A stretch of 64,000 nt of DNA, from NCBI RefSeq assembly GCF_030546645.1, contig NZ_JAUOTO010000008.1, forward strand, positions 124,001 through 188,000, read 5' to 3'. This document shows positions 8,102 to 59,079 of this stretch, one piece after another. The notes under the pieces are model-generated. The model was not told where the DNA came from, did no database searches, and saw only the letters and a program-made list of their open reading frames with translations. Numbering within the stretch: position 1 is the first letter of the stretch; each line of letters starts with the position of its first letter. The position numbers and the translations under genes were made by a program. The stretch comes from Flavitalea plasmicola (GTDB lineage Bacteria; Bacteroidota; Bacteroidia; Chitinophagales; Chitinophagaceae).

Positions 8102-8104
8102 GCC

Positions 8105-11100
8105 CTAATCGGTGACCTCTGTCAAATGTGCTTTATGTTTGCCGGATACATAAGTATATACTGCCGGTATTACGAACAGTGTCAATATCAGCGAGAACAT
8201 GATCCCCCCTACTACCACGATCCCCAGGGGAATGCGGCTCGTGGCCGCGGCGCCCAGGCTCAGCGCAATAGGCAGGGCGCCAAGCGACGTGGCAAGGCTG
8301 GTCATCAGGATGGGACGCAGTCGCTGGGAAGCGGCTTCTATCACCGCATCCATCCGGGCCATGCCATGCTCCCTTTTCTGGTTGGTGAATTCCACGATAA
8401 GGATCCCATTCTTCGTCACCAGTCCGATCAGCATGATCATCCCGATCTCGGAGAAGATGTTCAGGGTCTGGTGAAAGAGCCACAGGCTTAGCAAAGCGCC
8501 TGCCAGCGCCAGCGGCACCGTCAGCATGATGGTGAATGGATCGATAAAGCTTTCGAATTGTGCCGACAATACCAGGTAGATCAGCGCCAGCGCCAGGCCA
8601 AAGGCAAACAGGATATTGGACGAGCTCTCGGCATAGTCACGGGAAGAGCCAGACAGGGCCGTTTGGAAGCTGGGGTCCAGCTGCTTGTTGGCAATGGCTT
8701 GCATAGCCTCGATCCCATCCCCGATGGTCTTGCCTTCCGCCAGTGACGCGGAGATGGTAGCGGCTTTATACCGATTGAAATGGAAGAGGGTGGAAGGATT
8801 ACTGTTGTTTTCGATATGGATCACGGCATCAAGAGGAATATTGTCCCCATACTTGTTGCGGACATACACCTTGCTGATGTCGGTAGGCTTGTTCCTGTCG
8901 TCCCTTTCCACCTGCGCAATGACATAATACTGATAGCCGTTCATGATAAAATAGGCCAGCCGGCCTCCGCTGAAGGCCGCCTGCATGGCGGAGATGACGT
9001 CGTTGGTCGACAGGCCCAGATCCTTGATCTTCATCCTGTCCACGCTGATCTGCAGCTCAGGTTTGTTGAATTTCAGGTTCACGTCCACATTAGCGAAAGT
9101 GGGGTCCTTACGGGCCGCGTCCAGGAATGCGGGGATCGTTTTCTTCAGCTTTTCCATATCCTGGTTCTGCAGGACGAATTGCACGGGCAGACTGGTCTTG
9201 CTGCCGGAGCCTACGGCAATTGTCTGTTCCTGGATGGCGAAAACCCTGGCGTCGTTAAACCGGGTGAGCTTTCGTTGCAGCTCCGACGTGATGGTATTCT
9301 GACTCCGGTGGCGCTCATCCGGTGGCACCAGGCCGATGCGGGGCTGGGAAGTATTGATAGATGTCCCCGCTGGCGTACGCGCAAAGACAAACTGCCGCTC
9401 CGGAATGGAGTCATAAAGAAAATTGGCGATCTCATCGGTCACATCGCGCGTGTACGTGTAGCTGGAACCTTCCGGCAGGGTGACGGAGAACCGAATGCTG
9501 CTGCGATCTTCCAGCGGTGCGATCTCGCTTTGCATATTCCTCAGGATCATCCAGATCATAACGCCGCAGACCACGATGATCACCCACGCCATCCACCGTA
9601 TCTTCATAAAACCTTTAAGCAGGCGTAAATAGCCATTTTCCATGCCGGCGAAAAAAGGTTCGGTCTTATTGTAAAACCACCCATGTCCCGACTTGCTGCT
9701 CGTCAGGTATACGTTCAGCACAGGAGTGATGGTCAGCGATACGAAAGAGGATATGAGCACCGCTGCAGCCAGCACCACGCCGAACTCACGGAACAGCCGT
9801 CCCACAAAGCCCTGGAGAAAGACCACCGGCATGAACACTACCGCCAGGGTCAATGAGGTGCTGATGACGGCAAAAAATATCTCCTTACTTCCTTCCAACG
9901 CTGCCTTATGAATGGGAAAGCCCTGTTCCAGCTTGCGAAATATATTTTCTGTCACCACAATGCCGTCGTCCACCACCAGGCCCGTTGCCAGCACAATACC
10001 CAATAACGTAAGTATATTGATCGTAAAGCCCGACACATACATGATAAAAAAGGTGGCGATCAGCGAGATGGGAATATCGATCAGTGGACGCAGGGCGATC
10101 AGCCAGCTGCGGAAAAAGAAAAAGATCACCAATACCACCAGCGAAAAAGCGATCACCAGGGTCTCCTTCACCTCGGAGAGGGATTGACGGATGATCTTGG
10201 TATTATCTATCAATACATTCAGCTCTATATCCGATTTGTTGGAATTTTTCAGCTCATCCATCCGCTTGTAGAACTCATCGGCTATGGCAATATTATTCGC
10301 CCCCGGCTGAGGCACGATGGCCAATCCCACCGCATTGACCCCGTTGTACTTCCAGCTTTGCTCCTCATTCTGGGGTCCGAGCTCCACCCGGGCTACATCG
10401 CTCAGGCGAACGATGCCCGTACTATCCTCCCGGAGAATGATGTCCCTGAAATCCTTTTCCGTTGTCAGGCGGCCCAGGGTTTTGATGGTGAGCTCCGTAT
10501 TATTGCCATAGATCTTTCCGGGCGGCAACTCCACATTCTCGGTGTTCATAGCCGTGGAGATATCGTTGTAGGCGATGCCATAGGCATTCATTTTGTCCTG
10601 GTTCAGCCAGATACGCATGGAATAGCTCTTGTCCCCAAAGACGTTGACAGAGCTCACCTGGTTAATGGTCTGCAGCTGCTGCTGCAAGACGTTGTCAGCA
10701 TAATCGCTCAGCTCCATCAGGCTCTTGGTCCGGCTTTGGACAGCCAGGATAAGAATAAAGTCGCTGTTGGCGTCAGCCTTGGTTACCACGGGCGGAGCGT
10801 CGATGTCCAAAGGGAGGCCCCGCTGGGCCTGACCCACCTTGTCCCGCACATCGCTGGCCGCCGCTTCCAGGTCCACCCCAAGGTTGAATTCCACCGTGAT
10901 ATAGCTGCTGCCCAGGCTGCTGGTGGAAGAAATGGTCCGGATGCCGGGAATACCGTTGATCTGTTTTTCCAGGGGCTCCGTGATCTGGCTTTCAATGATA
11001 TCCGGGTTCGCGCCCGTATAGTTGGTATTCACCGTGATAATGGGGGGATCGATAGCAGGATAATCCCTTACGGCCAGAAAATTATAGCCTACGACGCCAA

Positions 11101-11170
11101 ACAGGATGATCATCAGGTTCATCACCGTCGCCAGCACCGGCCGTTTGAGAGATAATTCAGAGATATTCAT
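8105..11170 (-). CDS. RND-family efflux pump (HAE1-like inner membrane permease)
   Basis: The 1,021-residue protein has the standard RND layout: a first membrane helix after MNISELSLKRPVLATVMNLMIILFGVVGY, a large periplasmic porter region, a central helix bundle with ATGLVVDDGIVVTENIFR (the proton-relay D-D pair in TM4), a second porter region and a final bundle with MLIGLVTKNGILIVEFTNQ. Length and motif order are those of AcrB/MexB-type proton-driven exporters. The adaptor lies 29 bases upstream and the TolC protein 3 bases downstream, so the three genes form a complete export system. Its substrate is unknown; it is less than 1 kb from the peptide gene cluster, so a role in exporting those products is possible but unproven. 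Confidence 0.97.
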   Translation of the reverse strand: MNISELSLKRPVLATVMNLMIILFGVVGYNFLAVRDYPAIDPPIITVNTNYTGANPDIIESQITEPLEKQINGIPGIRTISSTSSLGSSYITVEFNLGVDLEAAASDVRDKVGQAQRGLPLDIDAPPVVTKADANSDFILILAVQSRTKSLMELSDYADNVLQQQLQTINQVSSVNVFGDKSYSMRIWLNQDKMNAYGIAYNDISTAMNTENVELPPGKIYGNNTELTIKTLGRLTTEKDFRDIILREDSTGIVRLSDVARVELGPQNEEQSWKYNGVNAVGLAIVPQPGANNIAIADEFYKRMDELKNSNKSDIELNVLIDNTKIIRQSLSEVKETLVIAFSLVVLVIFFFFRSWLIALRPLIDIPISLIATFFIMYVSGFTINILTLLGIVLATGLVVDDGIVVTENIFRKLEQGFPIHKAALEGSKEIFFAVISTSLTLAVVFMPVVFLQGFVGRLFREFGVVLAAAVLISSFVSLTITPVLNVYLTSSKSGHGWFYNKTEPFFAGMENGYLRLLKGFMKIRWMAWVIIVVCGVMIWMILRNMQSEIAPLEDRSSIRFSVTLPEGSSYTYTRDVTDEIANFLYDSIPERQFVFARTPAGTSINTSQPRIGLVPPDERHRSQNTITSELQRKLTRFNDARVFAIQEQTIAVGSGSKTSLPVQFVLQNQDMEKLKKTIPAFLDAARKDPTFANVDVNLKFNKPELQISVDRMKIKDLGLSTNDVISAMQAAFSGGRLAYFIMNGYQYYVIAQVERDDRNKPTDISKVYVRNKYGDNIPLDAVIHIENNSNPSTLFHFNRYKAATISASLAEGKTIGDGIEAMQAIANKQLDPSFQTALSGSSRDYAESSSNILFAFGLALALIYLVLSAQFESFIDPFTIMLTVPLALAGALLSLWLFHQTLNIFSEIGMIMLIGLVTKNGILIVEFTNQKREHGMARMDAVIEAASQRLRPILMTSLATSLGALPIALSLGAAATSRIPLGIVVVGGIMFSLILTLFVIPAVYTYVSGKHKAHLTEVTD

Positions 11171-11199
11171 ACTTCAGGTATACTAGATAGGTGATTTGC

Positions 11200-12357
11200 T
11201 TATTGGTTGGCGTCCATTTTTTCCAGGTCCTTCACGCTGCGCACCTGCAGCGGGGACCTGGGCCGGGCAAAGAGCACGCCGGTGACCACCACCGTATCGC
11301 CGGGACTGACCCCCTTGGTTATCTCCACATTATTGGCTTCACGTACGCCGGTCTGTACGTTGACAAACTGAGCCCTTCCCTGTTTCACGAGTATCAGCTG
11401 GTTGTTCTTATCTTCAGGGATAATGCAATTGGTAGGCACCATAACGGCCTGCTTGTCCGCGCCGGCATCGACAAATACCTTTACAAAGGCGCCGGGATGC
11501 CCTTTCCCTTCCTGGAGGATCGCCCTTACTTTCAGGTTGCGGCTGGTCTGGTTGATCTGAGGTTCAGTGGCGATGATCAGCCCTTTGCGATGCGCCTTGC
11601 TGGCGGCGTCTATCTCAATATCCACCAGCGAGCCTTTCCTGATCACGGCGGCATATTGTTCAGGCAGGGTAAAATCCACTTTGATCCTGTCCAGCTGCTG
11701 GACGGTGGCAATGACATTGGCTGGGGTGACATAGGCGCCGGGACTTACCTGGCGAAGCCCCACAATACCACTGAATGGTGCGCGGATGATGGTCTTGTCG
11801 ATCTGGGCCTGTGTATAGGCGATATCCGCCTTGGTGCTGTTGACATTATTGAGCGCCAGGTCATAATCTGCCTGGTTGATCCCCTGAATGTCCAGAAGCT
11901 TCTGATCCCGCTCCAATGTCTTTTGATAAAGGTCCAGCTGTACCCTTGACTTTTCCAGGGTAGCCTGGAGATCCGCATCATTGATCCGGGCGATGACCGT
12001 GCCTTTCTCAATCTGCGCTCCTTCCGGCACATTGAGGTAAGTGATGCGCCCGCTGATCTCGGGATGCAATTCCACGTATTCATTCGCCACCACCGTCCCG
12101 TTGGCCTCTACCGTATTCTCGACGCTCCGGGAACTGGCAATAATGACATCCACGATGACGGGCTGGTTGCCCTGGCTCCTGGGCGTCTTTGCAGCATCCG
12201 CTTTCTCCTTACAGGCCTGCAGGAACAAAGGGAGCGAAAGTGCCACGCAGAGATAACGAATAGCGAATGTATTACCTGTGAAAGGAGCTGCTGTGTGTAG
12301 TAGCCGGGCCATAAATCGATTTAGTTGAAAGATGCCAAATATAAACAGATTTGACAT
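11200..12357 (-). CDS. RND efflux periplasmic adaptor lipoprotein
   Basis: The 385-residue protein is a membrane fusion protein of the HlyD/AcrA type. A lipobox-like LFLQAC motif (Cys49, or Cys34 if the start is M16 at 12312) suggests attachment to a membrane. It is followed by a lipoyl half (GRITYLNVPEGAQIEKGTVIARI), an alpha-hairpin (about residues 130-190), the second lipoyl half (IRAPFSGIVGLRQVSPGAYV) and a beta-barrel domain. It links the inner-membrane pump to the outer-membrane duct. It is the first gene of the adaptor-pump-duct operon. The M16 start gives a more normal signal peptide length. Confidence 0.95.
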   Translation of the reverse strand: MSNLFIFGIFQLNRFMARLLHTAAPFTGNTFAIRYLCVALSLPLFLQACKEKADAAKTPRSQGNQPVIVDVIIASSRSVENTVEANGTVVANEYVELHPEISGRITYLNVPEGAQIEKGTVIARINDADLQATLEKSRVQLDLYQKTLERDQKLLDIQGINQADYDLALNNVNSTKADIAYTQAQIDKTIIRAPFSGIVGLRQVSPGAYVTPANVIATVQQLDRIKVDFTLPEQYAAVIRKGSLVDIEIDAASKAHRKGLIIATEPQINQTSRNLKVRAILQEGKGHPGAFVKVFVDAGADKQAVMVPTNCIIPEDKNNQLILVKQGRAQFVNVQTGVREANNVEITKGVSPGDTVVVTGVLFARPRSPLQVRSVKDLEKMDANQ

Positions 12358-12645: not shown

Positions 12646-13509
12646 TTATTCCATAAATTTTTCTAAGGCATACACAATCTGCCTGTCTACTTTATAGTCG
12701 AATTTCCGGGCAAAATGGCGGTTGCTATTTTTAATTTTTACCCAATCTTTTATGGTTAAAGTTTTGGGGTGATAACCTCCTTCTGTCCAATCAATATACC
12801 GTAAATTGTTATTAACTATAGCCTTTCTAAAAGGAGAGTTTAACAGTAAGGAGGGCATCAGCAGCTCATCGGGAATGCAGGTAAGTCTAAAAAAGATATC
12901 AATATCAATATGCGCTGTCAGGTATTCACAGATATATTTTGCACAGGCGTAAGTAATGGTAAACCACATGGACCCGCCATAGGGTTGCCATCCATTTGGG
13001 AAAGTCCGCTTACTGCCTTCCATACGCTGTGCCTGGACAAACAGATGAGCGCGCTCCATTCCAAGGTCATCGACGAGCCAATAATAATTATAACGGTCTG
13101 CCCCGCCTGCGGGCCCCCATCTTGTAAAATCCGGTATTGAAAAATATTCAATGAATTCATGTCCGGCATGCTCTTGTAAGTACGTCACGATTGTTTGATT
13201 GCTTTTTATGGGGAAATCCTGTCCGCTGATCAAGCTGAGATAATCATAATGCCCATGTTTGATAGCTTCGTTTAACAAATGTAAGATCCCTTCTACCATA
13301 CTATATCCTCCCCAATTGATTGCCAGTCGTTTTTCCGGCAGGTGGACGTCAGCCTTGTCGGAAAATTGGCTTTTCAGCGTAAGATAATTTACTTCTGTCT
13401 GGCTATCGATGTGAATAAAAAAAGTAACCTCTTCCGACGCAAGTGTGTTAACTATTTTCACCAGATGTTCAAAATGTTCATGCGCCAGGATTAAATAAGC
13501 CAGTTTCAT
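12646..13509 (-). CDS. GT14-like beta-1,6-N-acetylglucosaminyltransferase (core-2/I-branching type)
   Basis: The 287-residue protein matches the core-2/I-branching (GT14) family. It opens with MKLAYLILAHEHFEHL and FIHIDSQ, has DYLSLISGQDFPIKSN around residue 90, then the YGGSMWFTITYACAKYICEYL segment and CIPDELLMPSLLLNSPF, which contains the family's conserved DE. These enzymes transfer GlcNAc or xylose in a metal-independent way and are often found in bacterial capsule and glycan clusters. It is the most distal gene of the minus-strand cluster, 32 bases after the LanC-like gene. Here it could decorate the cluster's peptide or a surface glycan; the sequence does not decide between them. Confidence 0.82.
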   Translation of the reverse strand: MKLAYLILAHEHFEHLVKIVNTLASEEVTFFIHIDSQTEVNYLTLKSQFSDKADVHLPEKRLAINWGGYSMVEGILHLLNEAIKHGHYDYLSLISGQDFPIKSNQTIVTYLQEHAGHEFIEYFSIPDFTRWGPAGGADRYNYYWLVDDLGMERAHLFVQAQRMEGSKRTFPNGWQPYGGSMWFTITYACAKYICEYLTAHIDIDIFFRLTCIPDELLMPSLLLNSPFRKAIVNNNLRYIDWTEGGYHPKTLTIKDWVKIKNSNRHFARKFDYKVDRQIVYALEKFME

Positions 13510-13541: not shown

Positions 13542-15389
13542 CTAACGCGGTACGACGACCAGCACTCCTTTCATTAACAGGGATTTTATATACATCTGCA
13601 GGATATAATTCAACTGGACCTGGAGATGTCGTTTATTCCCGGCCGAAAATTTTTCTATCAGGATCGCAATGGTTTTTTCTTCCTGGGATAGAATAAAGTT
13701 TACAATATTGTTCAATACTTTATACACCGGGCGTGGTTCGGTGAATATGTCTGTAAAGATCCTCGATGTGCCCAGGTTCTCTGCCTTAAAGTCCATGTAG
13801 TCGTCGCCCCAGCAGTAATACGAATGCCTGCCATAAGAAGTGAACAGGTGGGACAGCATTGCAGGCGTCAATGGATTTGTGAGGTCAACTACAGGCTCCC
13901 TCTTCAACAATAATATTTTGTCCGAGAGTATCAGCTGCAAATTCAAAAAGTCCTCCACCGGTAAGGCCAACAGTTTATCCATTCTCGCGGAGAATTCAAC
14001 GGCACTGTCTGACATATATATTTCCGGACGGCTTCTCATCCTGGTGATGGCCATCTCGATATCGATCGCCTCCTCCAGCTTGTTTTTCACATTTCCCGGA
14101 AATACATGTTTCGAGACCGTCCTGACCCATTCCTCATATTTTTCCGGCAGAATGAATGACGATGTCGACAAAAAAGTGCTTAATTCATCCGGGCAGTTTT
14201 TTTTAACGATAGGGAATGACCTTCTGAAATAGCGTTGCAGCAATTGTGCATTGACGGCCGACTGCAATCCTCCCTGGGAAGCCTTGTGCAGCATACCACG
14301 GCAAGGATGATCTTCCTGCATCGGGGAAACGGGCAGGCGCGGCAGCAACAAGGATGGATCGCTATCAAGATCCGTCATTTTAAGCAGGAAGTAGCCTGCG
14401 TCCACCAGACTGTTGAAATCGTGTGGCGTGCCTGCCAGCTTTTTCTTTTCCTGGGCGACCTTTGTAACGAGCGCTGCAGCCACTGTCCTTGCGGCTTCCA
14501 GGCAATTGGGGTCTTTTGTCAGGCAATAGGCTTCTTTATATGCCAGCCCTTCGTCTGCTAGTTTGCCTGTAGGGGCCTGTGCATAATTTGAAGCAAGCAT
14601 GGGAAAAGCGGCTATCCATTCATTCCAGCGGTCCCCGTATCCCGTGCCGGGCAGGAGCAAGGACGCATACAGCCTCGTCAAAAGGTGTACAGGCAGCATC
14701 GCATTATTCATTTCCCTCCGCAAGTATTCATCTTCTTCCTTTAGCACTTTATCAGCCAGCGAATACAGATCGGAATTGTGGCAATAGCGCCCTATTTCGA
14801 GGAAACAGCATGCTATCCCCGAGCTACCCCGGTCCCAGCCGGTGTGACGTTTGTTCCTTTTCAAGGCGGTCCAATAAATCCCGGTGCCTGTCAGGACGGC
14901 CTTATCCACCAGGAAGGTGAGGCATTGCCGGATATAATCCATCAACCAACCTTCTTCTGTCTCGGCATACATGGAAAGATAAAGCAGCATTGTGCCTGCC
15001 ATTCCGTCTGCCATCCCATAATTGTCGGGTGTTTTACACGAAAGGAAATTCGAATGGAGATATTGTTTTCCCAGTTCCAGAGCCTTCTCCAGGTATAACT
15101 CCCTGCCGGTGGCGTTGAAAAGTTCAAAGTAAAGGGAAGCCAGCCCTGACCTCCCATAACATGGGCGCCCCGGGCGGCTCGGGAATGTCATGGACGATAG
15201 CCCCGGTTTTTCCAAAACGGACAGTAGGTTTGCCAATATTGCCGGCTCATGCGTATTTTTATACAACTCCAGTATAAAAAAGAGGTCCTTGTTTAACCCA
15301 TGTTCTGCCACCTGGCTGTCTTGCATTTCCATGACATAGCGGCCAATATCAAGACAATGGTCCAATATCTGAGACGACTGTTTAAGCAT
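13542..15389 (-). CDS. Divergent LanC-fold protein with C-terminal extension
   Basis: The first 350 or so residues show LanC-like alpha-toroid repeats of the xGxxG type: CYGRSGLASLYFEL (77-90), MADGMAGTMLLYL (126-138) and WDRGSSGIACCFLEIG (185-200). True LanC cyclases have AHGxxG, WCxGxxG and CHGxxG at the zinc and catalytic sites; none of these is recognisable here. About 250 C-terminal residues have no clear homology to LanC. The last 80 alternate helical and hydrophobic stretches and end LLMKGVLVVVP, possibly a small winged-helix-like domain (inference). The gene lies 12 bases downstream of the DUF6734-like gene in the same operon. It may be a peptide-binding scaffold or an unusual cyclase. 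I trust the fold more than any activity. Confidence 0.62.
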   Translation of the reverse strand: MLKQSSQILDHCLDIGRYVMEMQDSQVAEHGLNKDLFFILELYKNTHEPAILANLLSVLEKPGLSSMTFPSRPGRPCYGRSGLASLYFELFNATGRELYLEKALELGKQYLHSNFLSCKTPDNYGMADGMAGTMLLYLSMYAETEEGWLMDYIRQCLTFLVDKAVLTGTGIYWTALKRNKRHTGWDRGSSGIACCFLEIGRYCHNSDLYSLADKVLKEEDEYLRREMNNAMLPVHLLTRLYASLLLPGTGYGDRWNEWIAAFPMLASNYAQAPTGKLADEGLAYKEAYCLTKDPNCLEAARTVAAALVTKVAQEKKKLAGTPHDFNSLVDAGYFLLKMTDLDSDPSLLLPRLPVSPMQEDHPCRGMLHKASQGGLQSAVNAQLLQRYFRRSFPIVKKNCPDELSTFLSTSSFILPEKYEEWVRTVSKHVFPGNVKNKLEEAIDIEMAITRMRSRPEIYMSDSAVEFSARMDKLLALPVEDFLNLQLILSDKILLLKREPVVDLTNPLTPAMLSHLFTSYGRHSYYCWGDDYMDFKAENLGTSRIFTDIFTEPRPVYKVLNNIVNFILSQEEKTIAILIEKFSAGNKRHLQVQLNYILQMYIKSLLMKGVLVVVPR

Positions 15390-15401: not shown

Positions 15402-16295
15402 TTAGATCTCAGACTTTTCGATCAGCCTGTTTATTTTATGATAATATTCGGGATAATCCGTTTGGAGCCGCCATTCCAGATGTGCATAGCATATGCGTAC
15501 AGATTTATAAAACCCATAGCAGTGTACGTAATTCTTGTTATCACGGGCGAAATTGAACACACCAATGTGGTCGGGGGCATCTATCTGAGGGAACAGGCAG
15601 GTGATCTTATGCTGGTGACGGCGGGCAAGGGCCTCGAAAACGACCTGCTCGGTGATGACATTGACAAACCCTGCATTGATGGTGAGTAAGGAGTCCACAA
15701 TGACTTCCATATTGTTCTCCAGAAAAGAAAAAGCTTCTTTTACATATTCCTTGAAGAAAATAATATCATTGCCTCCCAGGATGCCCGCGCTGACGCCGGG
15801 AATATATTTGACTCCGGACAGGTTGCCGAAGTAGGAAGGGATCTTCACCAGTCCTGCCCAGACCTCCTCATAGTCCGGCATACTGACTGGGGTCAGTTCC
15901 ATATTCTGCCCGATCAGGGCTGCGTTCATCAGCTGTTCACCGAATTCCTGGAAGATGAAGACGTCTCCATCCACATGCAGGAAAGGCTTGTCTTGCAGGC
16001 CATATGTATACAATTTCCCCAATGCCCATAATGCCGGAGAATAATGATCGATCTGGTTCAGAACAGTCCGTACGCTGGTGTAAGGCAAACCGATCTTATC
16101 AATGAAGATCTCCTGTCCGAAATGGTCCGTAACCAATTCCACCTCGTCATAATATTTTCTCAGCTGGAGGCAGCTTAGCGCCCAACTGTAATAATTGATG
16201 ACGCGATGCGGCCACCCACCGTGCAGTCTGTCATCTATGCCATATGAGTCCGACCTCATAAAGGGTTTGGACCAAAAGCTTTGAATTATTTTCAT
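15402..16295 (-). CDS. DUF6734-like putative glycosyltransferase (paralogue 1)
   Basis: The 297-residue protein starts MKIIQSFWSKP and contains HVDGDVFIFQEF near residue 98, a DxD-type motif in the setting expected for a GT-A nucleotide-sugar enzyme. It is clearly paralogous to the protein at 22560-23447: shared features include the same N-terminus, YYSWALSCLQLRKYYDEVELVTD, LPYTS and YGFYKS/YIHTPGN regions in the same order. I believe this is the DUF6734 family of Bacteroidota, whose function is unproven. It overlaps the GT2 gene by 4 bases (ATGA), showing translational coupling. A role in glycosylating the cluster product is inferred from the fold and neighbours. Confidence 0.68.
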   Translation of the reverse strand: MKIIQSFWSKPFMRSDSYGIDDRLHGGWPHRVINYYSWALSCLQLRKYYDEVELVTDHFGQEIFIDKIGLPYTSVRTVLNQIDHYSPALWALGKLYTYGLQDKPFLHVDGDVFIFQEFGEQLMNAALIGQNMELTPVSMPDYEEVWAGLVKIPSYFGNLSGVKYIPGVSAGILGGNDIIFFKEYVKEAFSFLENNMEVIVDSLLTINAGFVNVITEQVVFEALARRHQHKITCLFPQIDAPDHIGVFNFARDNKNYVHCYGFYKSVRICYAHLEWRLQTDYPEYYHKINRLIEKSEI

Positions 16296-17389
16296 ACGAT
16301 CCCGATCGGATTGGTCATGTCGAAATTCAAATATACCGTCCCTTTACCCCATCCATCCTGGTTGACGGATTTATCATTCTTGTCGTTTTCCATGAATTTA
16401 TTCCGGTTGACACATTCTCCATAAGCCATCAATACCACATAATACATTGCATCGTCCTTGGGGATGCACTGCCAGGAAGAGTTGTCGTTTGCAGCCCGGT
16501 AACTCATTGCTTTGCTGTCTTTCTCCTGCAGCCTGAGGGTTTGGCCCTCTTTGAATTTGAGCAGTATACCCTTGTTCTCCTGGTCGAAGGTGCCTTCCTT
16601 TTGCCCGTTGGGAGGGATGGACCAGCCTGCGAAGCTATTAACCCAATCTTCGTGCGCTGAGCTATCGAATGCATAGGAGACCTCAAAAAAGGAATGGTCC
16701 CGCAAGAGGTACAATATTCTTCCTGAATTGTCGGTGCCTTCCTCCGAAACACGCATCAGGATCGCATCTACATCGTTGGGGAGGCGGTGATTCACCAGGC
16801 GCTCGACATTGGAATGCCCGATGTACTGGCGGTATTTATCCTGGTCTATGAAAACCCGTTTGCCGCCGGCTTTTTCCAGCCGGTTGACAAGGTCGACGTC
16901 TTCTATGCCGTATACGATCATGGATTCATCAAATCCGTTCACGGATCGGAAGGCGTCGTTGGAGAAACAAAGTTTACCGCCCTGGTCCCTGAAGGGAATG
17001 CTGTCTTTCATCAAGGTGGTGGTAATCGTCTTTTCGCCATGTTGATTAAAACTTTCATTAACCCAATCCACGTAAGCAGGTCCGGCATAATTATCTGCGT
17101 CCACCAGACCAATGATATTCCCTGATGCCAGCTTTAAAGCCATGTTCTTGGAATGGGACAGGTCAAAATACTGCGGTTCAGTGGTCTTGTAATATTTTAA
17201 GATCCCGGAGCTGATATACTGAGATAAATTAGACCTTACCCAGTTGCTCAGGCCGTCTTTGGAATTATAGTCCAGTAAGACGAACTCTATACCCGGGTAG
17301 TGCATGTTCTCCCTGATGTTAACAGGTAGCGTCTTGGCCAGGTGTTTCAACCTGTTCATACACACGGTGCATATCGATATCTTATTCAT
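16292..17389 (-). CDS. GT2-like glycosyltransferase with extra C-terminal domain
   Basis: The first 220 or so residues form a GT-A family 2 glycosyltransferase: ISICTVCMNRLKHLAKTLP at the start, LLDYNSKDGLSNWV, LASGNIIGLVDADNYAGP with a DAD metal-binding motif near residue 99, and NGFDESMIVYGIEDVDLVNRL, the ED motif of this family. The remaining 140 residues are not part of GT2. They are rich in aromatic residues and Asn/Asp, look beta-stranded and match nothing I know. The gene is coupled to the downstream DUF6734-like gene by a 4-base overlap and follows the halogenase by 11 bases. The acceptor could be Ser in the Trp/Ser-rich precursor, but this is inference. Confidence 0.8.
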   Translation of the reverse strand: MNKISICTVCMNRLKHLAKTLPVNIRENMHYPGIEFVLLDYNSKDGLSNWVRSNLSQYISSGILKYYKTTEPQYFDLSHSKNMALKLASGNIIGLVDADNYAGPAYVDWVNESFNQHGEKTITTTLMKDSIPFRDQGGKLCFSNDAFRSVNGFDESMIVYGIEDVDLVNRLEKAGGKRVFIDQDKYRQYIGHSNVERLVNHRLPNDVDAILMRVSEEGTDNSGRILYLLRDHSFFEVSYAFDSSAHEDWVNSFAGWSIPPNGQKEGTFDQENKGILLKFKEGQTLRLQEKDSKAMSYRAANDNSSWQCIPKDDAMYYVVLMAYGECVNRNKFMENDKNDKSVNQDGWGKGTVYLNFDMTNPIGIV

Positions 17390-17400
17390 ACGATTGAAGT

Positions 17401-19602
17401 TTAAATTAATTCGGGATGCCGGGTAAGGATCTTCAGGTCGTTTTCCAACGGCACCGTCAGCTGTTGGATGGATTGCCAGGTACGTATGTTCGCCATCCAG
17501 ATACTTTTGTTCTGTACGGATGGCGGGAACCTGTTTGGAAGTATACCTTGTCCCATCAATAAGGTATCCAGTCCGAGAAATCCAAAAATATCGTCCTTTA
17601 TTTCCTGCCCTATCATTCTCTTGAAGTGTTCGTCTGTATAGGACAGCAAACCTACTTCCTTATAAAGGTCTACCAACCATTGAATGGAGGAGATATCCGT
17701 GTATTCCCGGCAATCCTTCCAGAATTCCGTCTGGAACTTCTTATTGTATTTGTAGTGGATGGAAAGGAAGCCCCGCAGATAGTCCCAATGGGCGTTCATG
17801 TTGTAGTTGATAGCCTTTCTTATGGAGGGGGATTTTTTCAACTGGCGAAAGCTATGCGTCAATGTTTCCACCTCTTTAATGATCATGTGGATACCGGTGG
17901 ATTCCAGGGGTTCCACGAACGCATAGGAATTCCCGATGGCGAATACGTTGCCTATACAGGCTTCCTGGTGCCGGCCTGACCTGAAACGGACCGTTTTAAG
18001 TCCGACGATCCCCGGGTTTTTCCTCTGCAATTCATCTGCGGCTTCATCGATCGTACAGTAATTAGACGAGAATACATAGCCGCGATGATCTTCTCCGCGC
18101 ATGGGTATGCACCAGCACCAGCCATTGTTCATTGATTCGGCATAAGTATAGGGTTTCACCTTATCGCGGTTGGGGATACAGCCTGTCACTGCCGTATCTG
18201 TGAAAAGACTGCTGTTGTAAGATACATAAGGTGATTCGAGCATTTTTTCGAGCAGCAGGGACCTGAACCCGGAGCAATCCACGTAAAAATCGTATTCATA
18301 AGACATGCCGCTCTCTCCTTTTATCGAAAGGATCTCATTTACATCGGTTTTCCTTTCTGAGTCAACGATGAGGTCATCGATATAATGGACGCCGGCGGCC
18401 AGGGCCATTTCCTTCAAATACCCGATAAAGGAGACATTGTCCAGGTGAAGCGCATAGGAAATATCATTTGAAAGGGAAAGGAACTGTTCGAGGGAATGGC
18501 TGTTCATGGTCGACAGGACGAAGGATGAGTCATTGCTCATCAACAGGGATGTAAGGGAGCAATAATTCATGTCCTTGTTGATATGATAGGCGCTGCGGAT
18601 ATCGGATTTGCCGAAGGGATAGTTGAAATAGTAATCGCCGGGAAGGCCCCAAAAGAACTTGATCCCCAGCTTCCATGTGGGCCTTACTTTTTTATAGAAA
18701 TCCAGCGCACTAAAGCCCAATGTATGGAACAGGAAACGACGGATCTCGGGTGTTGTAGCCTCTCCCACCCCAATGACCGGGACCTTGGAGGACTCGATCA
18801 GGGAGACGGACAGCCCTGGATATCGTTTCTTGAGGGATAATGCAGTGAGGTAACCTGCCGTTCCGCCCCCTACTATGGCTACGCTTTTATATTCATCTTC
18901 ATCAATCGTAGAAGCGGGCCGGTCGAGGAACAGGTTATTGACGATATGTGTCTGGGAGTGCTGGTATTTTCCAAGGAGCACCCTGCAATCCGGCGGCCCC
19001 ATCGGGGGCGGGTAATTTTCTTTCTCGAACAGTGGATATATGTATTTTGAAGAGGCAGGAGCGGAAGATCCGGGAGATAAGCAGAAAAAGGCTGCTTTAT
19101 CGATGAATTTTAATTTCTGGTCCGGCTCGTCCTGGTACAATAGCCGAAGCTCGTCTACCAGGTCTGCAAATGCCAGGTGATATACGCCCAGGTTTCGCTG
19201 CAGGTCATCAGCGGTGACCGCACACGTGGTCATTTCATACAATTCGCTGCTGGTCGGCGTGCGTTTCAGCTCCTGTTGTTTCAGGAAAAGCAGACAGGAA
19301 TCCATGCCGGCCGTCATACCGGGGAAATGTGTGGGCCCTGCGATCAGGTGATCATCCCAGCAAGATATATGTATAGATCTTTTCTTTTCTTTCCGGAGGA
19401 GCTCGCAAACGTCCAGGACTTCCTGGAAAGTAAGGTTTTCCATGACGGGCAGGAAGAATTCCGTCTCCATTTGATCATTCCAGATGCCGAACAGGGTCCG
19501 ACGACAATCCAGCCAGTCAACCATCTTCAGTTGGTCCCAAAGAAAGTTTGCCAGCGGAGACTCCTCGTTATGGGCAACCAGTGTGATTTTCATTTTATTC
19601 AT
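17401..19602 (-). CDS. Flavin-dependent tryptophan halogenase with long N-terminal extension
   Basis: Residues about 235-733 are a flavin-dependent halogenase. The FAD-binding VAIVGGGTAGYLTAL lies near 240, VIGVGEATTPEIRRF follows, the likely catalytic lysine is K311 in TWKLGIKFFWG, and the class-defining WxWxIP motif is GWCWCIP with W495 and W497. These enzymes use FADH2 and O2 to make HOCl or HOBr, channelled to the lysine, and halogenate an indole. The family is usually 500-550 residues. Here about 230 residues precede the FAD motif and resemble nothing I recognise. The gene directly follows a Trp-rich precursor peptide gene, with 56 bases holding a hairpin between them. A peptide substrate is therefore likely (inference). 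A separate flavin reductase is needed and is not seen in the window. Confidence 0.92.
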   Translation of the reverse strand: MNKMKITLVAHNEESPLANFLWDQLKMVDWLDCRRTLFGIWNDQMETEFFLPVMENLTFQEVLDVCELLRKEKKRSIHISCWDDHLIAGPTHFPGMTAGMDSCLLFLKQQELKRTPTSSELYEMTTCAVTADDLQRNLGVYHLAFADLVDELRLLYQDEPDQKLKFIDKAAFFCLSPGSSAPASSKYIYPLFEKENYPPPMGPPDCRVLLGKYQHSQTHIVNNLFLDRPASTIDEDEYKSVAIVGGGTAGYLTALSLKKRYPGLSVSLIESSKVPVIGVGEATTPEIRRFLFHTLGFSALDFYKKVRPTWKLGIKFFWGLPGDYYFNYPFGKSDIRSAYHINKDMNYCSLTSLLMSNDSSFVLSTMNSHSLEQFLSLSNDISYALHLDNVSFIGYLKEMALAAGVHYIDDLIVDSERKTDVNEILSIKGESGMSYEYDFYVDCSGFRSLLLEKMLESPYVSYNSSLFTDTAVTGCIPNRDKVKPYTYAESMNNGWCWCIPMRGEDHRGYVFSSNYCTIDEAADELQRKNPGIVGLKTVRFRSGRHQEACIGNVFAIGNSYAFVEPLESTGIHMIIKEVETLTHSFRQLKKSPSIRKAINYNMNAHWDYLRGFLSIHYKYNKKFQTEFWKDCREYTDISSIQWLVDLYKEVGLLSYTDEHFKRMIGQEIKDDIFGFLGLDTLLMGQGILPNRFPPSVQNKSIWMANIRTWQSIQQLTVPLENDLKILTRHPELI

Positions 19603-19626
19603 TGAATGAAATTTTGCGAATTAATA

Positions 19627-19653
19627 AGGGCACCATAATATTAATGGTGCCCT
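19627..19653 (-). terminator. Strong hairpin just after the precursor peptide gene
   Basis: A perfect 10-bp stem (AGGGCACCAT with ATGGTGCCCT) encloses a 7-base loop. On the minus strand it starts six bases after the precursor stop codon and is followed by TTATTAATT. It lies between the precursor and the halogenase. It looks like a partial terminator or a 3' mRNA stabiliser, which would raise precursor level over enzyme level. The U-tract is interrupted, so complete termination is unlikely. Confidence 0.7.
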
Positions 19654-19658
19654 CCATG

Positions 19659-19829
19659 TTACTTGTTCCAGCTTTGGCTCCAGCTTTGGCTCCAGCTCTT
19701 GGAATCCGCAACGGACCATTCCCAGGCGCGGGAATTCTTAGATTCCTGCATTTCGCATGCAAGGTCCATCTTCTCTTCTGACATAGCAGTCAGAAGTTCG
19801 TTCAGGTTACCCTTCGTCTTTTCAATCAT
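19659..19829 (-). CDS. Putative ribosomally made precursor peptide, Trp/Ser-rich tail
   Basis: This 56-codon ORF starts ATG at 19829 and stops TAA at 19659. The first 40 residues look like a leader: MIEKTKGNLNELLTAMSEEK, then a charged stretch with one Cys (C24). The C-terminus ends SKSWSQSWSQSWNK, and another WEW lies at 36-38, giving five Trp in the last 21 residues. The SWSQ unit repeats with period four. The tandem repeat keeps frame and the third-position pattern, so it is coding. The gene sits alone between the DUF4254 gene and the halogenase, with a strong hairpin after it, as is common for RiPP precursors. The direct neighbour is an enzyme that acts on tryptophan. I infer a leader-core peptide whose Trp residues are halogenated and whose Ser residues may be glycosylated. 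No family match is known to me. Confidence 0.78.
   Translation of the reverse strand: MIEKTKGNLNELLTAMSEEKMDLACEMQESKNSRAWEWSVADSKSWSQSWSQSWNK
19668..19697. repeat. 12-bp tandem repeat encoding the SWSQ units
   Basis: CCAGCTTTGGCT occurs twice in tandem (19668-19679 and 19680-19691), and a third partial copy CCAGCT follows. On the minus strand each unit encodes Ser-Gln-Ser-Trp. It lies wholly inside the precursor gene and has likely grown by slippage or duplication. Confidence 0.92.
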
Positions 19830-19916: not shown

Positions 19917-20576
19917 TCAGTGCCCAGCCGAATTGTATAGCACCGGATTGAGGTTCGGGTCATTATACATTTTCATTTGCCTGTACACTTTCATGTATTT
20001 ATCCCCGCGGGCAATGTCCTGCAGCAATTCATCGATGCTTCGGAGCAGATCGAGCTGCTGATCTGCCAACACCCGCAGCCTGGAGGTACATTGATGAATA
20101 TGCTGTTCATCGGCGTTGGTGCGGCGCGTTTCAATTCTCATGTGATATATCTTCAATGCCAGGATAGACAATCTATCGAGTGCCCACGCAGGGCTCTCGC
20201 TGTTCATTTTGGCGGATGGTCGAACCGGGACTTCCCTGAACAGTGTAAGAAAATGGTCGTCCATACGTTCCACTGTGTTTGTCCGGTCCTGGTTGAGCGC
20301 ATCGATGCGGCGTTTGCAGGCCAGGGCCTCCCGGGGTTCTATATCGGGGTGCCGGATGGCGTCTTCGACATGCCATTGGAGGCAGTCGATCCAGCATTTC
20401 TGGTAAAGCAGGTATTCGATGGTTCCGGCCGGAAAGGGGTTGGAGACGGCCTGTCCGGGGTCATCGTACAGGTGGTAGTCATCTATGACCTGTTCGTAGA
20501 TAGTATTTGCCGGCCGGCTAAAGGTTTCACCCATCGATAGGGCGGCAATCGGCGGCATCTTTTTCAGGTACTGCAT
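19917..20576 (-). CDS. DUF4254 family protein
   Basis: The conserved block SESPAWALDRLSILALKIYHM (about residues 130-150) and CKRRIDALNQDRTNTVERMDD are diagnostic of DUF4254, a helical Bacteroidota family usually found in LPS and glycan gene clusters beside GT9 glycosyltransferases. A GT9 gene is indeed present 3 kb upstream. Function is unknown. The longest ORF would start at GTG 20633, inside the LanC-like gene. I choose the ATG at 20576 (219 residues) because a clear AAGGAAGAGA sits seven bases upstream and the family has no proline-rich extension. It is followed by an 87-base gap and then the precursor gene. Confidence 0.8.
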   Translation of the reverse strand: MQYLKKMPPIAALSMGETFSRPANTIYEQVIDDYHLYDDPGQAVSNPFPAGTIEYLLYQKCWIDCLQWHVEDAIRHPDIEPREALACKRRIDALNQDRTNTVERMDDHFLTLFREVPVRPSAKMNSESPAWALDRLSILALKIYHMRIETRRTNADEQHIHQCTSRLRVLADQQLDLLRSIDELLQDIARGDKYMKVYRQMKMYNDPNLNPVLYNSAGH

Positions 20577-20583
20577 ATAAATT

Positions 20584-20593
20584 TCTCTTCCTT
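20584..20593 (-). promoter_or_regulatory. Ribosome binding site deciding the DUF4254 start
   Basis: AAGGAAGAGA on the minus strand ends seven bases before the ATG at 20576. Strong Shine-Dalgarno sequences are uncommon in this phylum, so it favours this start over the upstream GTG at 20633. Confidence 0.65.
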
Positions 20594-20598
20594 GGTGA

Positions 20599-22554
20599 TC
20601 AATTACCCAGGGCGGGGGAAAGGATGTCGGCACATACCCATTGACGAATGGTGAACAGCGTGCCTTTTTCCATCACTTCCAGGAAATAAGCCGCGGTCGG
20701 AAAATTCGTAAATGCCTTCACCATTTCTTTCAACTCCTTTTGAGGTATGGATGCGATGTGTGCCCTGATCTTCTGCAGCGCATGTCCTACCGTGCAGGGC
20801 TCATCAAAACAGTGTAGCAGAAGCATATTATCTGGAGTCAGGTATATTTCGTCCACCTGGTTCCCCGGGACGGTGTATAAAATATATTCGCTGTACTGAG
20901 CGGCAGTGTTATCAGGCTTGCTCCAGTTCCAGACAGTATTCACCAGTTTTATCGCGGGCGATATACGCAATGCTTGTTGGAGCAGCCATTCATCGGACCC
21001 GTTGAGCCATTCGGCAGTCTTTTCCTGGCGAAGGCTTTTATCGAGATAGAGCTGCAGCGGTGAACGTTGTTCCGTCAGAAGGCATTGCAGCTTTTCATGT
21101 TCCAACCTGAATGCGTCCTTCCACCTGTCTTTTGTCGGGAGTAGACCGGTCATGGACACCCGATGCCTCAGCTGTGTGATAAAGGCAGAGAGCTCTCCGG
21201 CGACTCCCGGTCCTTCCGATCTTTTCAGGTAGTCGGCTGCTGAGGAGGCGTCGGCCTCTTCCCACAACCGGAGGCTCCTTGGGAATACGCCGGAAAGCAG
21301 TATCCTGCGAGTCTCGGCTAAGGTCGGGCCGGGCAGTTCCGGAAGGTGTTCTCCCCGGTCGATATTCAGGAATGGGGCAACTATGTTCCCCGACCGGGCA
21401 GCCCCCCTGAGGGCGAGGGTAAGGAAATAAACAATGCCGGGGCAACCATGCAAGAGCCCCCCGTTCATGCTGGTCTCCGTTTCGCAAGCCAGGTAGTCTG
21501 TCAAACGGACGCTCAGATGTTGCCATTTGTCGGTGTGCCGTCCGTCGTCTGTCGCGAGGAGGAATAGCCCCAGACCGGCCAGCCCATTGTATATGCCGGC
21601 GGCTTCCATGTTTCCGGGCAGTGGCCCGTCGGGGATGTCCGGAGCTTCTCCCTGGCAGCCCGCCACCAGCAGACCCGTCGTTCCGTCTGCCCAACCATAA
21701 TCATTTTCCGGTGTCAACGATCCTGCATCGCCCCGGAGGTATGCTTGCCTCCAAAGCTCTTCCATTTTCCGGTCCAGCATGGGCTTCCGGTAGTTGCCCC
21801 AGGTAGAAGATCCCTCTACCCGGCAGGACTGGATAAACCGGTCTGTTTCCGTCAATAAGAAAGAAAAGGAAGGATGGGGTGAGAGGTGGTGCAACTGGGT
21901 CAGGACACATCGTATCCCGGCGGCTCCATAAGCCAGCCCGCATACGGGTCCCAGGTTGAGCTCTTCCGGCCTGCGCCAGTACAAGCCTTTGGGTGAAAGC
22001 GTTGCATTCTCCAGTATCTTGTAAATAAACTGCCCGATGTATGACGGGAGGAAGGAAGCGCCTGTGTAGCGGTACAGGTGCAGCAGGATCAATAACGTGC
22101 CCGCCCTTCCATCAAACAGCGCATCCGGCGTGTATTGGGAGTGAAGGTATTCGAGGTTGGCGGGCCGGATGAGATCCAGGTGATCTGTTAAAATGGTTTT
22201 ATCCTTGTCGATGAGGTATCGTTCGATCAATACATAAAAGACTCCTCCCCGGCCAGTGTACAAGGAGTAGTTGTTGGTAGGATGCTGTCTGCAGAAGGCA
22301 AGCAGGGATTGTATCGCCTCATCGGCAGAGCGTAAATAGGCCTCTTCCCCGAACTGCCGGTATAATTCCAGAAGGAGCAAAATGATGCCGCCCGTTCCCG
22401 ACGCTATATTTTCAGGGTTGTTCCAGGGCAGCTGCCCGGGAACTTGTAGTGAAGGAAACTGTGTGACAAGAGGCATTTGTCCGAGGAGGAAATGCCCATA
22501 GCGTCTTGTCAGCTCTTCTGTCCCGGGCTGCGCCTGATCGATTGTCTGCAACAT
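20599..22554 (-). CDS. LanC-fold protein lacking the zinc and catalytic residues
   Basis: All seven glycine-rich repeats of the LanC alpha-toroid are visible: GTGGIILLLLEL (53-64), YTGRGGVFYVLIE, FDGRAGTLLILLHL, LAYGAAGIRCVL (207-218), YGWADGTTGLL (286-296), IYNGLAGLGLFLL and LLHGCPGIVYFL. In active cyclases such as NisC the fourth, fifth and sixth repeats supply His212, Cys284 and Cys330-His331. Here the matching residues read as Y209, A289 and Y322-N323, so zinc binding and thiol activation should be lost. About 220 residues follow the toroid with no recognised domain. The gene starts five bases after the upstream DUF6734-like gene. With no dehydratase in the locus, a classic lanthionine-forming role is unlikely; a scaffold or peptide carrier is my inference. 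Confidence 0.8.
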   Translation of the reverse strand: MLQTIDQAQPGTEELTRRYGHFLLGQMPLVTQFPSLQVPGQLPWNNPENIASGTGGIILLLLELYRQFGEEAYLRSADEAIQSLLAFCRQHPTNNYSLYTGRGGVFYVLIERYLIDKDKTILTDHLDLIRPANLEYLHSQYTPDALFDGRAGTLLILLHLYRYTGASFLPSYIGQFIYKILENATLSPKGLYWRRPEELNLGPVCGLAYGAAGIRCVLTQLHHLSPHPSFSFLLTETDRFIQSCRVEGSSTWGNYRKPMLDRKMEELWRQAYLRGDAGSLTPENDYGWADGTTGLLVAGCQGEAPDIPDGPLPGNMEAAGIYNGLAGLGLFLLATDDGRHTDKWQHLSVRLTDYLACETETSMNGGLLHGCPGIVYFLTLALRGAARSGNIVAPFLNIDRGEHLPELPGPTLAETRRILLSGVFPRSLRLWEEADASSAADYLKRSEGPGVAGELSAFITQLRHRVSMTGLLPTKDRWKDAFRLEHEKLQCLLTEQRSPLQLYLDKSLRQEKTAEWLNGSDEWLLQQALRISPAIKLVNTVWNWSKPDNTAAQYSEYILYTVPGNQVDEIYLTPDNMLLLHCFDEPCTVGHALQKIRAHIASIPQKELKEMVKAFTNFPTAAYFLEVMEKGTLFTIRQWVCADILSPALGN

Positions 22555-22559
22555 GTGAC

Positions 22560-23447
22560 TCAGATTTGATGCGTCCGCAAAAGGTTTATGATCCTGTAGT
22601 AGGTGTCGGGATGGTCTCTGTGCAACCTGTGATCCAAAGAATCTGTCAGGTAGCGCTCCGATTTCAGGGCATTTCCAGGCGTATGAATGTAAGTGGTTCT
22701 GTGGGGAACGCCTGTATAATCGGCAAAATCATACAGCAAATGATTCACTTTGGGTTTAAGGTATTTAATGGCTATACCTTTTTCTTCGGCCAGGGCGTGG
22801 AACAGGAACTGCTCGAAGATGGTATTGGACAATCTTACATCCACTTTATCGAGGTTATTAAGATTGCGGTCGATGAACTCGAAGGCCTGGCGTCCGTATT
22901 CCCGGAAGAAGCCCACGTCCGTGCCTCCGATGACACCCGCATTAACGCCTTTGATACTACCATTCCGGCCGAGAGACGCGGTCAGTACATCCGGGCAGAA
23001 GTCAAAATGATTGACCATTTTGATAAATATCTCAAAGTAGCTGGGGTGGAAGGCGTCCCCGGCCTCTTCAAACTGTGACACCAGTGGGGCGCGCAGAAAA
23101 CCTTCATCGAATTTTTTCCAGATGAACACATCCCCGTCGGCATGGAGAAAGGGAGCTTCCTGGATGCTGTAGGCATAGAGTTTTCCCACGGCGAATAAGC
23201 CGGGAGGATAGTCATTCAGTATATCCAGGGCGATCTTGCAGCTGGTATAGGGCAATTCCAGTTTTTCGATCAGCAGTTCGTGGCCCGCCTTGTCAGTGAC
23301 CAGTTCCACTTCATCATAGAATTGCCTGAATTGCAGGCAGCTCAGGGCCCAGCTGAAGTAATGGTATTTCTTAGCCGCCCAGCCGCACCTGTTGGGTTCT
23401 TTCTTGACCTGGCCAGGTTTAGACCAGAAGCTTTGGATTATTTTCAT
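22560..23447 (-). CDS. DUF6734-like putative glycosyltransferase (paralogue 2)
   Basis: This is a paralogue of the protein at 15402-16295, with the same MKIIQSFWSKP start, YFSWALSCLQFRQFYDEVELVTD, LPYTS and HADGDVFIWKKF (DxD-type motif) in the same order. Aligning the two places the start at ATG 23447 (295 residues, against 297 for paralogue 1). An ATG nine codons upstream (23474) has a GGGAG-like site and cannot be excluded. The coding region overlaps the end of the GT9 gene by 29 bases. GT-A-type sugar transfer is likely but the donor and acceptor are unknown. Confidence 0.68.
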   Translation of the reverse strand: MKIIQSFWSKPGQVKKEPNRCGWAAKKYHYFSWALSCLQFRQFYDEVELVTDKAGHELLIEKLELPYTSCKIALDILNDYPPGLFAVGKLYAYSIQEAPFLHADGDVFIWKKFDEGFLRAPLVSQFEEAGDAFHPSYFEIFIKMVNHFDFCPDVLTASLGRNGSIKGVNAGVIGGTDVGFFREYGRQAFEFIDRNLNNLDKVDVRLSNTIFEQFLFHALAEEKGIAIKYLKPKVNHLLYDFADYTGVPHRTTYIHTPGNALKSERYLTDSLDHRLHRDHPDTYYRIINLLRTHQI

Positions 23448-24354
23448 GGAATTCAGTGTTGAAAGGAGGTCCATTGTGTCTCCCTGAAGCGACCTGGCGT
23501 TTGAGGGCCAGCTTTACTTCTTCGACGGTGATATGGTTCATACATTCATGTCCGAACGGGCAGGGATCGCCCCAGGCGTAATCAAAGCAGGGGGAACAAA
23601 AGACCCTTTTATAAATATTGACATTGTTGTCGTGCCCCCAGTAAAGAGGGTCCGTGTCTCCGAACAGGACCACCCCGGGGAGATCCGCGGCATTGGTGGC
23701 ATGTGCGAAGGAAGAGTCAATGCCCACGAAAGAAGTGCAATAGTGCAGCATGCAAAATGCTTCCCGCAGCGGCACTTTCCCTCTCCAATCGACGGCGCCT
23801 TTCACATATTCCTCGTCGGCATGGCCTGTCTGAATAAAGGTATATTCAGGTAATTGCCTGACCAGCTCGATCCAGTTGCTGATCTTCCAATGATGATTCC
23901 TGGAAGCCCTGGAATGGATGTGCATAAAAACGACATTGCGATAAGGAGCCAGCTTTTCACGGGCAATGCGGTGTTCCTTTTCTGTAAAGAACAGCTGTAT
24001 CCTTCTATCTTTCAAAGTAAGGCCGAATATATCAGCGGCAATGTCCACTACATTTTTCCGGTAGATCCTCGATACGGGGACGTGCTGAAAAGCCATCCGG
24101 TAAGCGTTGGGCATTTTCTTTTTCAGCCAATAGGACAGCAGGTGCCTGGGATAGCGTAGCAGCGCCCACGAAGTGAGATACCGGAGGGAGTCTATATAAG
24201 GGTTGTGCTCAAACACCTTTTTGTGTCGCGGATTGATGTAATAGACTATGATCCTGCGGTCGGGGAACTTCTCTTTAAGTGCCTTGTAGACGGGTGTGCA
24301 AACAAGTGCGTCCCCGATGGCTCCCCAGGAATAGATGATGAAGTCCTTATTCAT
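23419..24354 (-). CDS. GT9-family (heptosyltransferase-like) glycosyltransferase
   Basis: The 311-residue protein has the GT-B fold of the ADP-heptose:LPS heptosyltransferase family. Diagnostic parts are IIYSWGAIGDALVCTPVYKALKEKFPD at the N-terminus and the C-terminal FVGIDSSFAHATNAADLPGVVLFGDTDP, which holds the nucleotide-sugar pocket. Such enzymes usually build LPS core or O-glycans from the cytoplasmic face of the inner membrane. Its ATG overlaps the stop of the 63-residue small protein by eight bases, indicating coupled translation. Its company with DUF4254 fits known glycan loci. Confidence 0.88.
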   Translation of the reverse strand: MNKDFIIYSWGAIGDALVCTPVYKALKEKFPDRRIIVYYINPRHKKVFEHNPYIDSLRYLTSWALLRYPRHLLSYWLKKKMPNAYRMAFQHVPVSRIYRKNVVDIAADIFGLTLKDRRIQLFFTEKEHRIAREKLAPYRNVVFMHIHSRASRNHHWKISNWIELVRQLPEYTFIQTGHADEEYVKGAVDWRGKVPLREAFCMLHYCTSFVGIDSSFAHATNAADLPGVVLFGDTDPLYWGHDNNVNIYKRVFCSPCFDYAWGDPCPFGHECMNHITVEEVKLALKRQVASGRHNGPPFNTEFHENNPKLLV

Positions 24355-59057: not shown

Positions 59058-59079
59058 CAGGATGGTCTTTATTGAAAGT

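Follow-up and report, generated by a model that had tools for sequence, protein, structure and literature searches.

A tryptophan-rich short open reading frame beside a MibH-like halogenase gene in Flavitalea plasmicola: a probable precursor of a halogenated and likely glycosylated ribosomal peptide

A short open reading frame (ORF) at positions 19659–19829, on the minus strand of a 64,000-nucleotide stretch of the Flavitalea plasmicola genome (the whole stretch is here called the window), probably encodes the precursor of a ribosomally synthesised and post-translationally modified peptide (RiPP). A MibH-like halogenase encoded by the adjacent gene is predicted to halogenate the Trp residues of this precursor, and the Ser residues are likely to be glycosylated by enzymes encoded on either side. 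The ORF begins with ATG and encodes 56 residues, MIEKTKGNLNELLTAMSEEKMDLACEMQESKNSRAWEWSVADSKSWSQSWSQSWNK, ending in SKSWSQSWSQSWNK. Trp residues are found at positions 36, 38, 46, 50 and 54, and Ser residues at 45, 47, 49, 51 and 53, where they alternate with Trp or Gln; the segment SWSQSWSQSW corresponds to residues 45–54. The core peptide probably lies within residues ∼31–56, and the sole Cys, residue 25, falls in the presumed leader. A first-pass annotation, made from the sequence alone, had placed the ORF correctly and given its length and its SWSQSWSQSW tail; the five close Trp residues that it pointed out are likewise present, within 19 residues.

The tail is encoded by a tandem repeat (19667–19702, minus strand) with a period of 12 bp, 2.9 copies and a score of 63, in frame with the ORF as had been claimed. 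It ranks second among 21 such rows in the window, and its score was reached by one array in 100 simulated 64-kb windows from an order-3 Markov model; chance gives such arrays rarely. The density of Trp was dropped as evidence, since five Trp within 21 residues are reached by two of the 295 window ORFs of 40–80 residues, this one included, and the alternating Ser residues were likewise set aside as evidence standing alone. The spacing WxxxWxxxW is rarer than the five-Trp density, being found in two of 2363 ORFs of 30–110 residues drawn from 14 loci as well as the window, for a pattern that was taken from the window peptide itself and noticed post hoc.

Evidence that the ORF is coding is fair, not decisive. 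Its all-codon score of 0.124 compares with 0.25 ± 0.13 for 56-codon pieces of window genes and with −0.28 ± 0.22 for 189 other-frame ORFs inside genes, 1% of which score higher. The synonymous-only codon score is uninformative, being exceeded by 21% of the same 189 ORFs. The 20 bases preceding the ATG are 90% A+T, the 20 genes compared spanning 40–90%. Judged from these features of the sequence, translation is likely. The earlier view that the ORF is unannotated, and would be missed by standard annotation, is not supported, because it is already held in a database of 5.8 billion proteins (one member sequence, two contigs).

The ORF lies inside a packed minus-strand run of ten genes, extending from 24354 to 12646, in which intergenic gaps range from −56 to +87 nt; the bounding gaps are 211 and 288 nt. 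In the order of the minus strand, the genes encode a GT9-like protein, a first DUF6734 protein (copy a), LanC-like protein 1, a DUF4254 protein, the peptide, the halogenase, a GT2-like protein, a second DUF6734 protein (copy b), LanC-like protein 2 and a core-2/branching enzyme. A precursor ORF, whose translation is likely, and modifying enzymes are thus encoded within one gene run, as in a RiPP system. With the halogenase adjacent and glycosyltransferase-like genes on both sides, the initial reading of the ORF as a precursor peptide is supported as likely. That reading had named only the peptide and the halogenase; the paired LanC-like and DUF6734 genes, the E1-like fusion and the hairpin described below go beyond it.

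The halogenase gene (17401–19602, minus strand) encodes a predicted flavin-dependent Trp halogenase of 733 residues, with an N-terminal domain (residues ∼1–226) followed by a MibH-like domain (residues 241–697). Its presence beside the peptide, also noted at first pass, is confirmed by a match to PF04820 at 348 bits, and its closest solved relative by sequence is the peptide halogenase MibH, at 393.9 bits compared with 205.8 for the next solved structure. The structural comparison program VIA ranked PrnA above MibH, but it used a model in which the halogenase domain is poor. The sequence keeps GGGTAG, WCWCIP and K311, the last aligned with the RebH Lys; we take these to be the FAD motif, the WxWxIP motif and the active-site Lys, respectively. 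Domain and motifs together indicate that this is likely a MibH-type peptide Trp halogenase, with activity on peptides being predicted.

The MibH chain covers only residues 231–707, leaving the N-terminal domain unmatched. This domain is predicted to adopt an E1/ThiF-like fold, as in the RiPP enzymes McbB, LynD/TruD and MccB, from which the window protein differs in having the E1-like domain fused to a halogenase. In the model of the full protein (mean pLDDT 49.9), residues 1–170 are fair, with block means of 58–90. The match to McbB, LynD/TruD and MccB begins near chain residue 96–114, and the winged-helix recognition element (RRE) is outside the aligned range; for the same reason the match does not take in the recognition domain that PaaA and MccB are reported to have at their N-terminus (PMC12250964).

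Comparison with characterised enzymes suggests how such a halogenase might act. A 2025 review names four RiPP Trp halogenases, MibH, SrpI, MppI and ChlH, and its text lacks words that start with RRE or glycosyl (PMC12615548). MibH acts on Trp of a ribosomal peptide (PMC12615548) and is reported to require leader removal and prior ring formation (PMC12615548, PMC10858898). Its product NAI-107 (microbisporicin) is a lanthipeptide, unlike the window product as judged from the genes found. ChlH, 58% identical to MibH, is described as chlorinating the linear chlorolassin precursor at Trp8 and Trp12 (PMC12518702), the same i/i+4 spacing as in W46, W50 and W54 of the window peptide, although chlorolassin is a lasso peptide; halogenation of i/i+4 Trp residues in a linear precursor is therefore possible. 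The ChlH leader is reported to be dispensable, and a contrary report by another group is mentioned in the same paper (PMC12518702). Leader-guided Trp halogenation of a peptide, as proposed for the window system, is described for the proteusin brominase SrpI, which differs in being reported without an embedded recognition domain and in having a long proteusin leader and a C-terminal Trp (PMC10858898).

Relatives of the window halogenase are few: one other among 298 genomes of the order, one other among 395 genomes of the class (G1063) and, at E 1e-60, none besides itself among 395 genomes of the phylum. The viral contigs gave one match, 30% identical (L042), and the search of genome_contigs gave one relative, in Cellulophaga omnivescoria (locus L010). 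The N-terminal extension was found in only two other proteins of the protein database; these, 64 and 63% identical, share the E1-halogenase fusion and are encoded on metagenome contigs of 50.6 and 14.1 kb. The search did not return the Cellulophaga protein and so was not exhaustive. The Cellulophaga protein is 41% identical to the window halogenase and has the same build. Its locus also includes a C39-peptidase ABC exporter, two methyltransferases, a CAAX-protease-like gene and two small ORFs (3817–3996 and 8780–8971) that share an LxxLxGGILGACHC (GG) leader. The nearer of the two, ∼0.9 kb upstream of the halogenase with the CAAX-protease-like gene between, ends in VWSDAWHYAWCDDDHS and is the only ORF besides the window peptide to contain WxxxWxxxW (one of 99 small ORFs in L010). 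This spacing is thus seen with both E1-halogenases examined, and the alternating Ser residues only where glycosyltransferases are present, a pattern that is only a hint because it comes from two cases. No paper on this RiPP-like locus was found in open-access full texts.

A locus from the same order (L019) encodes a halogenase that is 53% identical and has no N-terminal extension. It also has a 62-residue FlmA-like ORF containing GWWSVSS, which scores under the cut-off of a RiPP-precursor model, and is a candidate for another halogenated RiPP locus. The region L019:9186-17844 comprises the halogenase, a DUF6734 protein fused to a ∼265-residue domain, an ABC exporter, S8 and S41 peptidases and a radical SAM protein. 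In G1063, L043:3579-14952 holds two tandem MibH-like halogenases together with Asn_synthase, P-loop protein, JmjC and Asp/Arg hydroxylase-like genes, and the locus also has a 58-residue ORF with a GG motif; this is suggestive, not proof, of a lasso-like locus.

Several observations limit, or weigh against, the case for a halogenated, glycosylated RiPP. The peptide has no homologue besides itself in the 5.8-billion-protein database, none elsewhere in its own genome and none in the other genomes of the family (293/294). No protease family appears among the Pfam matches of the operon; one C39 gene lies about 284 kb away. The halogenase domain is poorly modelled, because the alignment had four rows. 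Finally, a methyltransferase, a MacB-like permease and a large cluster of nonribosomal peptide synthetase (NRPS) and polyketide synthase (PKS) genes lie upstream on the same strand, and a Streptomyces plasmid halogenase, 38.6% identical, adjoins NRPS genes. These last features, with the CmlA-type hydroxylase of the cluster, would fit a system in which the halogenase and glycosyltransferases tailor the neighbouring NRPS/PKS product, as in halogenated, glycosylated nonribosomal peptides, the short ORF being a chance or unrelated one. The 211-nt gap, however, parts the methyltransferase gene from the GT9 gene that heads the packed run, the halogenase bears a predicted E1-like domain of the kind used by RiPP enzymes, and the Trp spacing is common to the window peptide and the Cellulophaga ORF. 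Furthermore, RiPP-like genes are found in L010, L019 and L033, and no NRPS was seen among the genes scanned with Pfam, a subset of the ORFs, in L010 (10), L019 (8), L033 (4) and L013 (3). We consider tailoring of the NRPS/PKS product improbable.

Five glycosyltransferase-like genes, all on the minus strand, flank the peptide on both sides, and two of them encode DUF6734 proteins. Upstream are the GT9-family protein (23419–24354) and DUF6734 copy a (22560–23474); downstream are a GT2/GT7C-like glycosyltransferase (16292–17389), DUF6734 copy b (15402–16295), located between the GT2-like and LanC-like 2 genes, and a core-2/I-branching glycosyltransferase-like protein (12646–13509). DUF6734 is predicted to have a GT-A fold resembling glycogenin and LgtC; copy a, 39% identical to copy b, is predicted to be GT-A (GT8-like) by homology to the latter. 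Residues H107, D109, D111, H258 and K264 are invariant in 79 sequences and presumably represent the DxD and HxxGxxK-like motifs of glycosyltransferases. Among the GT-A families, GT8 is the likely assignment, but it is not settled, because VIA places GT8 members first and Foldseek the GT6 blood-group enzymes. Open-access full texts yielded no paper on DUF6734.

DUF6734 accompanies the halogenase in L019 and a lanthipeptide cluster in L033. In the latter (L033:9950-19801), tandem DUF6734 genes stand ahead of a class I lanthipeptide cluster comprising precursor, LanC, luciferase-like monooxygenase, LanB and a second LanC-like protein; an ORF with a lanthipeptide leader scores at the cut-off of its model, and the arrangement suggests glycosylated lanthipeptides. 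DUF6734 proteins of 514–563 residues with a long C-terminal extension are encoded at L019:10856-12547, L034:3522-5180 and L035:48-1592, the L019 extension being weakly similar to the C-terminus of window LanC-like protein 1 (hhalign E 0.009). Glycocins and other glycosylated RiPPs are ribosomal peptides that bear sugars, as is predicted here for the window product; the latter would differ in that DUF6734 is a different, GT8-like family and the tail has no Cys. The first-pass suggestion that the tail presents halogenation and O-glycosylation sites alternately is compatible with the sequence, but both halogen and sugar on the peptide are predictions.

The halogenase could also act on the ORF product while the sugar enzymes, the DUF4254 protein and the LanC-like proteins build something else, such as a surface glycan, leaving a peptide that is halogenated only. 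The GT9-like protein does resemble lipopolysaccharide heptosyltransferases, and the ten scanned genes of the Cellulophaga locus include two methyltransferases and no glycosyltransferase. Against this, peptide and halogenase are packed amid the sugar genes, and DUF6734 keeps the company described above in L019 and L033; we regard a halogenated-only product as unlikely.

The two LanC-like proteins both lack the expected metal ligands. In an alignment with a relative from L012 that keeps both CHG motifs, which we take to be the zinc-binding ligands of LanC, LanC-like protein 1 (20599–22554, minus strand; ∼270-residue C-terminal extension) has WADG and LLHG in their place and LanC-like protein 2 (13542–15389, minus strand) has neither. 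The genome contains no LanB domain PF04738 (two of two comparison genomes positive) and no LanM dehydratase domain PF13575 (one of five positive). Because zinc ligands and dehydratase domains are both missing, the window product, as predicted from its genes, is not an ordinary lanthipeptide. A lanthipeptide-type RiPP, with thioether rings made in the precursor by the LanC-like proteins, would suit the presence of two such genes in the operon and of a LanC-like relative in a lanthipeptide-like locus (L011, with a LanB N-terminal domain and C39 exporter), but it is highly improbable given these absences and a sole Cys that lies outside the core as its boundary is drawn here. By eye, the C-termini of the LanC-like proteins looked like RREs; no relevant Pfam match was found for the window proteins, and the L011 relative matched PqqD at E 0.014, below the cut-off. 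Pairwise profile comparisons of these C-terminal domains were weak, except that of LanC-like protein 2 with L013.

In RiPP operons the precursor gene is commonly separated from the enzyme genes by a hairpin. One is predicted here between the peptide stop and the halogenase start (19626–19654, minus strand), with an 11-bp stem, a 7-nt loop and a folding energy of −19.7 kcal/mol (z −4.84). It is absent from the list of the terminator scan (28 sites compared with 17 ± 4.5 in shuffles) and is likely an attenuator, through which the precursor could be made in excess. Folding was extended only to the candidate precursors of L010 and L019, and strong hairpins are predicted 3′ of these also (z −3.91 and −5.04). 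The promoter scans placed one sigma-70-like match 5′ of the peptide gene (19926–19897), in a region where such matches are not above shuffles (27 compared with 22 ± 5); the promoter scan gave no Bacteroidetes-type match upstream of the peptide.

For the halogenated, glycosylated RiPP that we favour, the following route may be envisaged. The hairpin would let the precursor transcript exceed that of the enzymes, and the E1-like domain would help to hold the precursor, perhaps through its leader (residues ∼1–30), feeding the tail to the halogenase site for FADH2-dependent addition of Cl or Br to Trp46, Trp50 and Trp54, and perhaps Trp36 and Trp38. The two DUF6734 proteins and the GT9-, GT2- and branching-type enzymes would build sugars on the alternating Ser residues, with the zinc-less LanC-like proteins serving as peptide-holding scaffolds rather than lanthionine cyclases. 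The leader would then be removed and the product exported, perhaps by the adjacent HlyD/RND/outer-membrane set. In an extended tail, all Ser residues would lie on one side and Trp and Gln on the other, so that one face would bear sugars and the opposite face halo-aryl groups. A bolder proposal, which we advance tentatively and think somewhat less likely to hold than to fail, is that this represents a new RiPP class, in which an E1-halogenase processively halogenates a ladder of four-spaced Trp residues and the DUF6734 pair, with zinc-less LanC scaffolds, adds sugar to every second Ser, producing a strand with glycans on one face and halo-indoles on the other. Should the favoured reading be right, the locus would supply a halogenase that has its own substrate-holding domain and acts on a repetitive substrate with several Trp residues, which would be of use for peptide labelling; DUF6734 would gain a function in peptide glycosylation, and LanC-like proteins without zinc ligands would acquire a directly testable role.

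The DUF4254 gene (19917–20633, minus strand) has an uncertain start codon, the listed GTG start overlapping the LanC-like gene; the name DUF4254 does occur in open-access full texts. Downstream of the ten-gene run are genes for a HlyD-type adaptor, an RND pump and an outer-membrane efflux channel (6746–12357, minus strand), a candidate exporter whose tie to the peptide is conjectural. The NRPS/PKS cluster upstream occupies 28529–63870 on the minus strand and includes, besides the CmlA-type hydroxylase, a terminal reductase domain, a thioesterase gene and an Asp/Glu racemase-like gene. Within it, the gene at 52863–59123 encodes a luciferase-like monooxygenase domain (residues 1355–1660) followed by an AMP-binding C-terminal piece.
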